A DNA stretch of 32,727 bases from an uncultured Nitrospina sp. (GTDB taxonomy: Bacteria > Nitrospinota > Nitrospinia > Nitrospinales > VA-1), in assembly GCA_913045445.1 (NCBI GenBank), contig CAJWQP010000013.1, positions 1 through 32,727 of the forward strand, written 5' to 3'. Within the stretch, counting starts at the first letter, position 1, and each line of letters begins with the position of its first letter. Made by a program: the position numbers and the translations under genes. Of this stretch, positions 26,012 through 30,798 are shown piece by piece. The notes beneath the pieces are model-generated. The model saw only the letters and a list, made by a program, of their open reading frames with translations, had not been told where the DNA came from and did not search any database.

Positions 26012-26574
26012 TGGACAGGCTTAAAAGGTTTTTATGATGGGACTGCAACGAAAGCTGATTATCACCAGAGGATGAGAGGATATCAAATAAATTTTTAATC
26101 CTCTCCTCAGCAAAATATTTAAGGCGCTCCGGTTCGCGGCTACTCAATTTACTTCTTCGCATGTGTCGTCATTCTACGAACTTGTCATCAACTTTTATTA
26201 TCAGGGGGCCGACATATAACAGAGGGATCAATTGTAGTAGTTTGGGTGCGGGATATTCCTTTCTCGGTATTGTTTGTCGAATTTTCAATATAAATTACTA
26301 TTATTGTACGGAAAAACAGAGGTTTTTATAATTATGTTGCAGTTATTAGTCCAATAATTTTAGTAGCTTGGAAAGTAGATTCCCTCAAAAGAGGTATTTA
26401 CTCTTAGCGTGATACTGGTATTTGGTCCGGTGGACAAAATGTGAGTTTGTTCAAATTAAATCGACCCCTCAATCATCGTGCGTGGTGCCGAAGGCCAGCT
26501 CCACTAGATTTCTCCCCGGAAATGACCGGATTGAACCTTCCTGAAAAGCACACAGATTCATACCTTAATTGATA
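26012..26574. other. Long non-coding stretch upstream of the acl promoter
   Basis: No ORF above about 30 codons with a credible start is seen. Most is AT-rich. A GC-richer block at about 26455-26560 contains a CCGG-N6-CCGG dyad (TCCCCGGAAATGACCGGATT) and, on the minus strand, a 30-codon frame with no ribosome-binding site. No tRNA-like or known riboswitch pattern was recognised. Confidence 0.5.
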
Positions 26575-26602
26575 TTGACAAAAATAGTAATTTAAATACA
26601 AT
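26575..26602 (+). promoter_or_regulatory. Strong sigma-70-type promoter of the acl operon
   Basis: TTGACA (26575-26580, perfect), 16-bp AT-rich spacer, TACAAT (26597-26602, 5/6). The predicted start near 26609 gives a leader of about 160 nt before aclB. This is the best promoter match in the window, as expected for a central carbon-fixation enzyme. Confidence 0.65.
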
Positions 26603-26620
26603 ACAGCATCCTAATCAGGA

Positions 26621-26667
26621 GATCACTGGGCGGGTGTGTCTTTGTGTCGCTTTGCGTGATGCGCCCA
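26621..26667 (+). promoter_or_regulatory. acl leader: interleaved stems (possible pseudoknot or switch)
   Basis: Two stems interlock. ATCAC (26622-26626) can pair with GTGAT (26656-26660), and TGGGCG (26627-26632) with CGCCCA (26662-26667). Because the order is 1-2-1'-2', they form either a pseudoknot or two alternative hairpins. The 23-nt middle is G/T-rich with repeated GTGTC. No known riboswitch class is recognised. Confidence 0.35.
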
Positions 26668-26695
26668 TAAATACCAAAAATACAATGTATAAGTT

Positions 26696-26715
26696 TGACC
26701 TTGTGAGGTCATTTT
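26696..26715 (+). promoter_or_regulatory. acl leader: perfect dyad, operator or attenuator-like hairpin
   Basis: TGACCT-TGTG-AGGTCA (26696-26711) is a perfect 6-bp inverted repeat with a 4-nt centre, directly followed by TTTT. As RNA it is a small terminator-like hairpin; as DNA it looks like a dimeric regulator site. It lies 54 nt before the aclB ATG and about 90 nt after the predicted start point. Confidence 0.45.
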
Positions 26716-26769
26716 CGAATTAATAAATTATTTTTATATCCATCAACATTAGATAAGCAGGAGACTTAA

Positions 26770-28041
26770 ATGCAAATCACCGGCATGCTCTGGGGCAGGA
26801 AGTTGCTGGACCTTGTTGAATATCCTCATTCTGAGGTGCGGGGTCCGGAACTGAGTGTCGATGGCATCAAAGAGATGATCAAAAAACACGGCGAAGTTTT
26901 TATCAAGCCCGTATTCAAAGGCGGTGTTGGTAAAAAAGGAAAATCCGGACTCATTGGACGCGCCAAAAACATCACTGAGGCGCTCAAAGAGAAGGAGCGA
27001 CTCTATTTCGCCGAACACAAAGTAGAAAATACCGTTTCCAAGTCAGATGGCGTGACCTACGAAGCGGCGGTTCCGGCGGATCACGAAGTCTATTTTTCAA
27101 TTTCAGACAGCACGGTGTACCGGGCGCCGATCATGACACTGACTCATCATGGCGGGGTAGACATCGAAGAGCTTCCGGAAAGTAAAATCGCGGTCGTGCC
27201 GTTCGACCCGCTGACTGGACTTAAGGCTTTCCATGTTTCCAACGCTTTGGTTGGACTGGGTGCGCCGTCGGAGATTATCAGTCCGCTGGTGCAGAATCTT
27301 CCAAAATTGTGGGACCTGTACAACAACTACGGAATGACTATGCTTGAATTGAACCCGATCCGCATGAGGCCGGGTAAGGGTGGACGCTACGCGCCCATCG
27401 CCTGCGATTTCAAGTGCGCGTTCGATCAGGACGATCCGGCCTGGAAACGCCTGGAACTGCCATCGCATGTTTTCGCGTCTGACAACACTGAATTCGAGCA
27501 GGAGATTAATCAGCTTCGCACCTATCAGGGGCAGAGCGATGTATATGTCATCAATGACAAGGGGAACATTACTGCGCCGACGTTTGGCGGTGGCGCCAAC
27601 GCCATGGTTACTGAACTCCTTGGCGAAGCGGCGACCATTTCCTCTGACTTTGGCGGTAACCCCCCGTACGAGAAGATGAATGAAATTTCGAATATCACTT
27701 TCAAGTACTGGCTTGAGCAGTCAAACGTTTTGTTCATTATCGGTGGTAAGGCGAATAACACGGATATCTATGAAACTTTCCGCGCTATCGGTGACGGACT
27801 CAGGGCATTTTTTCAGAGCAACGGACCCAAACCGCTGTTTGTTGTAGTCGGTCGTGGTGGACCCAATTTGATTCGTGGAATGGCTTATTTGCGTGACATC
27901 CTGGAGTCGTTAGGAATCCCCTATCGTTTCTTTGGGCACGACAGCGCTATGTCTGAGGTCATAAACTACGCTATGGATATTAATAAATGGATGATGAATG
28001 GTGGCAAGGAAGAGATTGCGGCCAAAATGAACATCAAATAA
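26770..28041 (+). CDS. aclB: ATP-citrate lyase small (ATP-grasp) subunit
   Basis: With the next gene this forms ATP-citrate lyase, which splits citrate with ATP and CoA into acetyl-CoA, oxaloacetate and ADP: the key reductive TCA-cycle step for CO2 fixation. The 423 residues comprise an ATP-grasp domain (about 1-240; VFIKPVFKGGVGKKGKSG, MLELNPIRMRPG) and a succinyl-CoA-synthetase-beta-like citrate-binding domain (GGGANAMVTELLGEA, SSDFGGNPP, FIIGGKANNTD). AGGAG precedes ATG 26770 by 7 nt. It follows a long regulated-looking leader and lies 42 nt before aclA. The match to the N-terminal part of eukaryotic ACL and to AclB of rTCA bacteria is by motif order. Confidence 0.92.
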   Translation: MQITGMLWGRKLLDLVEYPHSEVRGPELSVDGIKEMIKKHGEVFIKPVFKGGVGKKGKSGLIGRAKNITEALKEKERLYFAEHKVENTVSKSDGVTYEAAVPADHEVYFSISDSTVYRAPIMTLTHHGGVDIEELPESKIAVVPFDPLTGLKAFHVSNALVGLGAPSEIISPLVQNLPKLWDLYNNYGMTMLELNPIRMRPGKGGRYAPIACDFKCAFDQDDPAWKRLELPSHVFASDNTEFEQEINQLRTYQGQSDVYVINDKGNITAPTFGGGANAMVTELLGEAATISSDFGGNPPYEKMNEISNITFKYWLEQSNVLFIIGGKANNTDIYETFRAIGDGLRAFFQSNGPKPLFVVVGRGGPNLIRGMAYLRDILESLGIPYRFFGHDSAMSEVINYAMDINKWMMNGGKEEIAAKMNIK

Positions 28042-28083: not shown

Positions 28084-30798
28084 ATGCATAAGCAAGGTGT
28101 GGGGGAATTCCCCTACTATGTGGGTATCAATTCACTGAGCGATCTTGCCACCAAGGATGATAAGGTGGTTGTTCTCAATATACTGGGGAAAGAAAGTTCC
28201 GGAGTCACCCCGATCAGTAATGACTACTCCGGCGGCAACATCGTGTTTGGAACGGGGCCGGGAAAGTCGGGTAAGTCTCTCACCACCAAGACCGGGAAAA
28301 TTCCAGTTTACAACTCCATTAAAGAAGGACTGGCCGCGGGACACAAGTTCAACACGGTGGTCATATACCTGCCGCCCTCTGGCGTGAAAGACGGTATTGC
28401 AGAAGCGGTGAGGGAAAATCCCGATCTTAAAAAAGCTATTATTCTCACCGAAAAAGTCTCAGTTAAAGATTCACGCATCATGCGTGCCATCTGCCAGACC
28501 AACGGCGTTGATCTTTTCGGCGGCAACTGTCTGGGACTGGCCGACTCATGGAATCACGTCCGTCTCGGTGGAGCGCTCGGCGGAAGCCATCCTGAGGAGT
28601 CGCTCATTAAAGGATCGGTCGCGCTTTTCTCAAATTCCGGAAACTTCACCACCACTATCGCGGTTTATCTGGCAACAGCAGGGTGGGGGACGACTACCTC
28701 GGTGTCCAGTGGTAAGGATGTTTACATCCAATACGGACCTAAAGAGTTTCTCTACGCATTGGACAGGGATGATCGTTCGCAAGCCGCTGTTATGTACAGT
28801 GAGCCGGGTGGATATTACGAGAAAGATATAAAAACTGATAAGCCGTTGGTCGCCTGCGTGGTGGGCCGATGGAAAGCCAAGTTGAGCAAAGCTTGCGGTC
28901 ATGCAGGATCGCTGGCAGGTTCCGGCGATGACGCTATCGCCAAAGAAAAATGGTTCATGGAATACTTTGGTGTCGATAGTATTTACACACCGGATAATCC
29001 GGTTGCTTCCAAAAAGGGCGCACTGGTGACCAACATCGCGTACATTCCGGAAGCGTTGACGGCGGTTATGAAACTGAACGGCAAAGAGCCAGACTTCGCG
29101 CCGAAGGGCAGTTTGTCTCTCAAAAGTTGGTTTGGTAACAATCAGGGACTGGACTTGCCGAAGGAGTTGGATACGCCAGTGGTTGAAGCGATCTCTCCTT
29201 ACAATGAACAAATCGCCGCACTCGATAAACAGGTGGGTGCCCAGTATCGGCGAGAAACTCTCAAAGATGCCAGTGGCGCTTCGATGATGGACCCTAAAAC
29301 CCAGGTGTCCAAAATTCATCAGACCTCTATTCTCGATGCGTCCACAAAAACCTTCGAAGCTAATCTGGTATTTGCGTTATGTCGCGAGTATCCGAGTGAG
29401 TATGGTGAAAAAATTGCTAACATTGCGCTCAACGCGCACGTCAATCAACATGGGCAAGCTACTCTTGCGGCGGCGGAAGCTTCGCGCGAAGCGGGTAACT
29501 CACCCAATACGGTAGTCTCAGCCGCAGTTGCCATCGTTGGTAAAAGGACGGTTCAACCTGCGATGGATGCCGCCAAAGCGCTGCTGGAATTATTCCAGTT
29601 CACGAAACTCACAGACGTGGCCAGTGATTTCGATTACGCGGAACAACTGAAAGCCGCGTCAGCGCATAAAGATGTTTTACTCGCCGGTAGCGATGATCAC
29701 TGTGCCGGCAAGATGTCAGCTTGCCTCAGTCAGGGCACACAATCGGTATTCATAAAATTCCTGCTGGACTTCGCTAAACAAGAAGGGGGGACACCTTCTA
29801 CAGACGCGATGATGGCCGCTATCTGGACAACGCTTGGCTGGAAAGGTATGAGGTCAAAGAAAATCACCCGAGACACCATCATCAGGCTCCCATGGTACTC
29901 CCGCATCTATAGCACCATCGTAGGTGTTGCCGCTTCTGCGGATAAACATGGCGAAGACAGTTTATGCGGAATCAAGCTTGAAAAGCTGGTTCCTGAATTC
30001 TCGTTCACCCGAACGGCGTTTTTGGCAGTTATGGGACGAGAGCCTTCTGATGACGAGTTGTTCGAGTTCCAGGTTCTGCTCGGACTCATCATCACCAACG
30101 GACCTGGCACAATTTCCGCGCAGGGTTGTAAGGGCGCAGTGAGCGCAGACGGTCCGGAAATGCCCGGTCGTGTGCAGGTGAACAAGGCGTTCATCGGATT
30201 CCTTACTCATACCGGATTCGCCCACGGCGGCAACGGATATGAAGCGGCGGCATTCCTTATCGAACAGTTCAAGGATACGAGCCTCAAAGCGGCTGATGAT
30301 GCGAACCATGGTCTCGACCTCGATGCGATGGCCCTGGAGTATTCCAAGAAGTACAAAGACTATAAAGCCACTCAGAAAGCTGTCGGCAATCTGGAATACG
30401 CCAAAGTGCCTTGTATCAACCATCCCATTTTTAAAGGGAAAGATGTCAATTTTGATCCGCGTGAAGAGTTTGTTCGCAAACTGTTCGAAGATAAGGGTAT
30501 CAACAACGTGTTCCTTGATTATTACCATTCAATCGTTAACGCAATGTTCAAAGCCAAAGTCAGTAAGAACGTTTACTGTGTGAACATTGATGCGGTAATC
30601 GCCGTTATATTGCTGAAGATGGTATGGGGTGAGTACAGGGAAGGCAAACTGGCTGAAGAGGATGTAGAAACATCCAGCTTCGCCACCTTCTTGTTCGGCC
30701 GCATGATCGGTTGTGCCGCCGAGATCGACGACCACACCTACCGTGGCAAGAACATGGATACCCGCACACCTGCGAGCAAATGTTCGTACGTAGGATGA
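28084..30798 (+). CDS. aclA: ATP-citrate lyase large subunit (type II-like, extended)
   Basis: 904 residues: CoA-ligase part (about 1-330) then a citrate-synthase-like lyase part (about 390-900). The phosphohistidine loop is KACGHAGSLAG, with His273 as the phosphorylated residue. SNSGNFTTT marks the CoA-ligase fold. In the lyase part HVNQHGQATLAA, DDHCAGK, HTGFAHGGNGYEAA (about 709-722) and VNIDAVIAVILLKM (Asp836) correspond to the catalytic His and Asp regions of citryl-CoA lyase. AclA of Chlorobium is about 610 residues; the extra ~300 lie in the lyase half, which looks like a fuller citrate synthase. That fits the type II enzyme described for Nitrospira, Leptospirillum and similar organisms. 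GGAGG lies 9 nt before the ATG. A strong terminator follows. Confidence 0.92.
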   Translation: MHKQGVGEFPYYVGINSLSDLATKDDKVVVLNILGKESSGVTPISNDYSGGNIVFGTGPGKSGKSLTTKTGKIPVYNSIKEGLAAGHKFNTVVIYLPPSGVKDGIAEAVRENPDLKKAIILTEKVSVKDSRIMRAICQTNGVDLFGGNCLGLADSWNHVRLGGALGGSHPEESLIKGSVALFSNSGNFTTTIAVYLATAGWGTTTSVSSGKDVYIQYGPKEFLYALDRDDRSQAAVMYSEPGGYYEKDIKTDKPLVACVVGRWKAKLSKACGHAGSLAGSGDDAIAKEKWFMEYFGVDSIYTPDNPVASKKGALVTNIAYIPEALTAVMKLNGKEPDFAPKGSLSLKSWFGNNQGLDLPKELDTPVVEAISPYNEQIAALDKQVGAQYRRETLKDASGASMMDPKTQVSKIHQTSILDASTKTFEANLVFALCREYPSEYGEKIANIALNAHVNQHGQATLAAAEASREAGNSPNTVVSAAVAIVGKRTVQPAMDAAKALLELFQFTKLTDVASDFDYAEQLKAASAHKDVLLAGSDDHCAGKMSACLSQGTQSVFIKFLLDFAKQEGGTPSTDAMMAAIWTTLGWKGMRSKKITRDTIIRLPWYSRIYSTIVGVAASADKHGEDSLCGIKLEKLVPEFSFTRTAFLAVMGREPSDDELFEFQVLLGLIITNGPGTISAQGCKGAVSADGPEMPGRVQVNKAFIGFLTHTGFAHGGNGYEAAAFLIEQFKDTSLKAADDANHGLDLDAMALEYSKKYKDYKATQKAVGNLEYAKVPCINHPIFKGKDVNFDPREEFVRKLFEDKGINNVFLDYYHSIVNAMFKAKVSKNVYCVNIDAVIAVILLKMVWGEYREGKLAEEDVETSSFATFLFGRMIGCAAEIDDHTYRGKNMDTRTPASKCSYVG

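Follow-up and report, generated by a model that had tools for sequence, protein, structure and literature searches.

We report that the ATP-citrate lyase (acl) genes of an uncultured Nitrospina sp. are preceded by what is probably an acl-specific, conserved sigma70-type promoter, followed by a spacer-like 5' UTR with a small, lineage-specific hairpin ahead of the ribosome site. Much of the CO2 fixation in the dark ocean is due to Nitrospinota, which operate the reductive TCA cycle. The window, i.e. the whole stretch of DNA that was analysed, is 32,727 nt long (contig CAJWQP010000013.1); its host is a member of the Nitrospinaceae, and the named homologues are from Nitrospina or from Nitrospinota MAGs. 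Coordinates of the features are collected in Table 1.

Table 1 Features of the acl locus, given as positions in the window
Feature	Position	Strand	Remarks
sigma70-type acl operon promoter (TTGACA 26575-26580, 16-nt spacer, TACAAT 26597-26602)	26575-26602	+	11/12 to consensus
Spacer element AATT (AAWT in relatives)	26589-26592	+	T at 26592 present in all 53 acl promoters
Presumed 5' leader (-10 box to aclA)	26603-26769	+	167 nt; 121-323 nt across 53 Nitrospinales relatives; transcription start inferred
Interlocked stems (ATCAC 26622-26626 / GTGAT 26656-26660 and TGGGCG 26627-26632 / CGCCCA 26662-26667)	26622-26667	+	Judged to be chance; no function assigned
Perfect dyad / 6-bp hairpin (TGACCT 26696-26701, TGTG, AGGTCA 26706-26711; then TTTT 26712-26715)	26696-26711	+	-6.2 kcal/mol
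AU-rich 3' portion of the leader, including Shine-Dalgarno AGGAG (26759-26763)	26712-26769	+	89% identical to G049
aclA, ATP-citrate lyase subunit (ATP-grasp and citrate-binding domains)	26770-28041	+	Pfam PF16114, PF08442; start codon ATG at 26770
Second acl subunit (succinyl-CoA ligase-like / CoA-binding domains)	28084-30798	+	Pfam PF13607, PF02629

The acl genes and their promoter

Full-length AclA homologues are present throughout the phylum (57-95% identity), and 42 nt separate aclA from the gene for the second subunit. In the gap 5' of the promoter, positions 26478-26507 apparently are what remains of the end of an ATP-grasp-like gene that has decayed; G049, the sister species, has 88 codons of this remnant in readable form (L003:983-1250), with a weak match to the Pfam ATP-grasp domain (E 0.039).

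For comparison, the DNA 5' of aclA was collected across the phylum, and 53 Nitrospinales upstream regions were long enough. A near-consensus promoter had been predicted for the acl operon, and this was borne out: TTGACA-16-TAnAAT, matching the consensus at 11 or 12 of 12 positions, was conserved order-wide and stands 5' of aclA in each of these 53 regions, always with a -35/-10 spacing of 16. The class's outer families yielded no acl promoter of this quality (11-12/12). Both the hexamers (TTGACA / TAnAAT) and the 16-nt spacing are like those of sigma70-type (housekeeping) promoters, where the hexamers are 16-18 nt apart. Relative to G049, the nearest species, the promoter is 95% identical, as is AclA. 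A second promoter overlapping the dyad, TTGACC-18-ATTAAT, was rejected on the basis of its score (9/12 only) and its loss in G049.

In the genome of the window, TTGACA-16-TAnAAT occurs at 14 sites vs two in the reversed control. The other sites (L148-L161; genes named by eye) include some before HU-like, cytochrome c-like and NADH dehydrogenase subunit A-like genes, one before a universal-stress-like gene, and one before a tRNA-like sequence that is followed by a threonyl-tRNA synthetase-like gene.

Where the acl promoter differs from sigma70-type promoters in general is the spacer, which is conserved across genera: AAA follows the -35 box, and AAWT includes an invariant T located 5 nt before the -10 box. 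This T spans 15 genera, and genus-weighted conservation was also detected at promoter positions 6-8 (AAA) and 14-18 (AATTT-like). The 13 other TTGACA-16-TAnAAT promoters of the genome are unlike the acl promoter at the spacer positions, and the equivalent of the T at 26592 is present in five of them. The fuller motif, TTGACAAA-N6-AAWT-N4-TAnAAT, was found 26 times when 46 family genomes were searched, and all but one of these copies are at acl (25 of 26; reversed control, 0).

The conserved spacer could reflect a regulator instead of promoter strength. Such a regulator would bind across the promoter core, that is the fuller motif, and block or help RNA polymerase at acl, which would account for conservation in 15 genera of spacer positions that sigma70 does not normally read, and for a motif that is nearly confined to acl. 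However, no symmetric site is evident in all genera, the conserved A/T runs may merely tune promoter opening, and a motif this long would be rare outside acl in any case, so that the weight should be placed on its conservation and not on its rarity; we consider a promoter-binding regulator unlikely, though with a probability that is not negligible. According to the reading that we prefer, one strong sigma70-type promoter would transcribe the acl genes, with the core and part of the spacer kept order-wide, and any gene-specific control of acl would most likely be exerted at this promoter.

The leader and its interlocked stems

The long acl leader (roughly 160 nt) of the original prediction was also recovered: a leader is present in all 53 relatives, and its sequence is conserved within genera only. 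The folding energy of the leader in the window is average, no better than that of shuffles (z = +0.53 and z = +0.8 in two runs; mean over 52 leaders, -0.28). A search of the leader with Rfam 15 returned nothing at the gathering threshold, sub-threshold matches being chance-like, and the alignment of the leaders from the genus of the window gave no consensus fold.

The two interlocked stems, which had been suggested to form a pseudoknot or to switch between hairpins, are present as described, but the role proposed for them was not supported. An equal interlocked pair (5 + 6 Watson-Crick bp within 46 nt) arises in 15% of dinucleotide shuffles of the leader, and is found at unrelated positions in 15 of the 53 real acl leaders; with a looser limit of 60 nt span per stem an interlocked pair is present in 55% of the shuffles. 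Neither stem is retained in G049, and the identity to this species over 26622-26667 is 54%, vs 48-50% for the noncoding background upstream of the promoter and 73% for third codon positions. Judged from these comparisons, the stems are unconserved and at chance level, in DNA that is as diverged as unconstrained sequence.

These data also bear on the suggestion of a riboswitch in the leader, in which a pseudoknotted aptamer at 26622-26667 would sense a ligand. H-type pseudoknot riboswitches, of which SAM-II and preQ1 are examples, likewise have two interlocked stems in a 5' leader, the stems in the window are physically possible, and the leader is a long one on a key metabolic operon. In contrast to these riboswitches, the acl leader has no sequence-structure match and its stems are not conserved; given that they are chance-level and lost in the nearest species, and that no Rfam match, no excess folding stability and no covarying structure in the genus of the window were detected, a small-molecule RNA switch at acl is not supported and appears hardly credible. 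In the literature searched, no paper was found on how the acl genes of Nitrospinota are controlled, on regulation through the acl leader or on a riboswitch for acl, nor, judged by titles and abstracts, on transcript mapping in Nitrospina.

Two other candidates within the leader were rejected. The C-rich 5' end might have paired over a long range with the Shine-Dalgarno sequence, but partners taken from other genera pair equally well (permutation fraction 0.66). A leader peptide in a common frame, MYKFDLVRSFSN in G000 and V/MRKFDLARSFS in G049, is without a ribosome site and is lost in G055.

The dyad hairpin and the 3' part of the leader

The dyad and the TTTT that follows it are present as predicted, and the combination is mildly unusual: 22% of shuffles contain a perfect 6-bp hairpin, and 3.4% contain one with TTT within 7 nt. 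The counterpart in G049 (81% identity) is CGACCT-TGCG-AGGTCG with -7.0 kcal/mol, where both stem changes affect the same outer pair (T-A to C-G) such that the hairpin and the palindrome are kept; two random stem changes preserve pairing in about 7% of trials. Of the structures proposed for the leader, the interlocked stems failed the comparison with related leaders while the dyad passed it, in a single sister species only. The paired change is suggestive of selection on the hairpin or the palindrome, but is one event in one species pair. Moreover, G000 and G049 share a tiny reading frame, lacking a ribosome site, in which both changes fall on third codon positions. The dyad was not found in the other 51 acl leaders, including that of G055, which belongs to the same genus.

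As a weak intrinsic terminator, or attenuator, the dyad hairpin and the TTTT would set or regulate read-through into aclA. The arrangement is like that of intrinsic terminators and attenuators in 5' leaders, where a T run comes after a short hairpin, and is infrequent among shuffles as noted above; moreover, G049 retains both parts, with the paired change. It differs from intrinsic terminators in having a 6-bp stem of only -6.2 to -7.0 kcal/mol, no more than four T and an occurrence limited to two species. In addition, the terminator scan was silent, inspection by eye and the pair consensus fold revealed no conserved anti-terminator in which the dyad arms would pair differently, and the hairpin is missing from all other leaders, also within the genus. 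We regard attenuation at this site as improbable.

A perfect palindrome whose symmetry was preserved through both changes in the sister species would also be consistent with a DNA operator of a dedicated local regulator. Against this, the dyad is located some 90 bp downstream of the expected transcription start and is not retained in other acl leaders, and the genome has a single perfect copy, with one-mismatch copies at control level (7 per strand vs 8 in the control; relatives likewise). Two other exact copies in the phylum are both within coding sequence, and no dyad regulon was found. An operator function is judged improbable, and of what was claimed for the dyad there remains its presence and some constraint in one sister species.

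A conserved block begins with the dyad and extends up to the aclA start codon. Within 26712-26769 the identity to G049 refers to aligned sites, with one 11-nt gap, and compares with 48-50% for the upstream noncoding DNA. As far as the comparison of sequences goes, visible constraint in the leader is limited to the last ~75-95 nt, comprising the dyad hairpin, the AU-rich stretch and the Shine-Dalgarno sequence. We infer that this part most likely serves ribosome loading and mRNA stability, with the hairpin at 26696-26711 as a lineage-specific part of the region, and that the RNA from the promoter to aclA would in this species be mainly a spacer-like 5' UTR.

Hairpins in the acl leaders of other genera

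Leaders of the genus Nitrospina (g6) have a common covarying hairpin (A1), in which 95.7% of cells are paired and three pairs have changed on both sides, and a covariance model locates this hairpin in the sister genus g9. In the joint alignment of g6 and g9, which was fitted to the structure, 88.5% of cells pair and five pairs have changed on both sides; the 12 both-side-changed cells compare with 3.8 in shuffles, and slid versions score lower. Over 46 family genomes the resulting R2 hairpin is found only before acl, in 19 genomes with one copy each (the second copy in G058 corresponds to a second acl contig). Representative sites are L020:1366-1447 and L011:2827-2907, with equivalents in the other g6 and g9 acl leaders. 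We consider the g6/g9 hairpin a candidate new leader RNA element.

Like the dyad, the R2 hairpin lies in the acl leader downstream of the conserved promoter, but neither the leader of the window nor its genus gave a significant match with the R2 model. The best match of the R1 model in the window, at 26663-26737 (12.1 bits, E 1.4), fell on the dyad and had raised the prospect of homology between the dyad and the Nitrospina hairpin; with R2, built on more sequences, it was gone and the homology was rejected. In genus g16, of another family, the acl leaders (L035, L036, L039 and relatives) have a mean column identity of 83% and contain two or three hairpins that show some covariation and have no sequence relationship to the Nitrospina hairpin. 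In the Nitrospina-like genome G031, the noncoding DNA around the acl leader (L041) is strongly G+C-rich and GGC/GCG-repeat-like; its relatives are A+T-rich here.

Judging from these alignments, acl leaders are able to hold structured RNA, and the leader of the window does not share the Nitrospina hairpin. It is conceivable, but in our view quite unlikely, that acl leaders throughout the Nitrospinales carry fast-evolving lineage-specific hairpins (the dyad, R2 and the g16 stems) that would, downstream of an acl-specific promoter, control the key CO2-fixation enzyme in cis, either by binding a protein or by attenuation. An excess of small hairpins containing G+C in acl leaders (genus-weighted 4.7 vs 1.0 expected) is not demonstrably acl-specific, since control promoters also show hairpins: three of the 13 control promoters of the genome have one (0.8 expected), and one of these is a tRNA-like T arm.

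For the species represented by the window, the finding reduces to an ordinary, though very well conserved, promoter and a 5' UTR. Given the covarying acl-leader hairpins in other genera, RNA-level control of acl may nevertheless exist in the wider lineage. What is of use here is a precisely defined promoter, conserved throughout the order and marked by a spacer signature specific to the gene, together with acl-only covarying leader hairpins in other genera.
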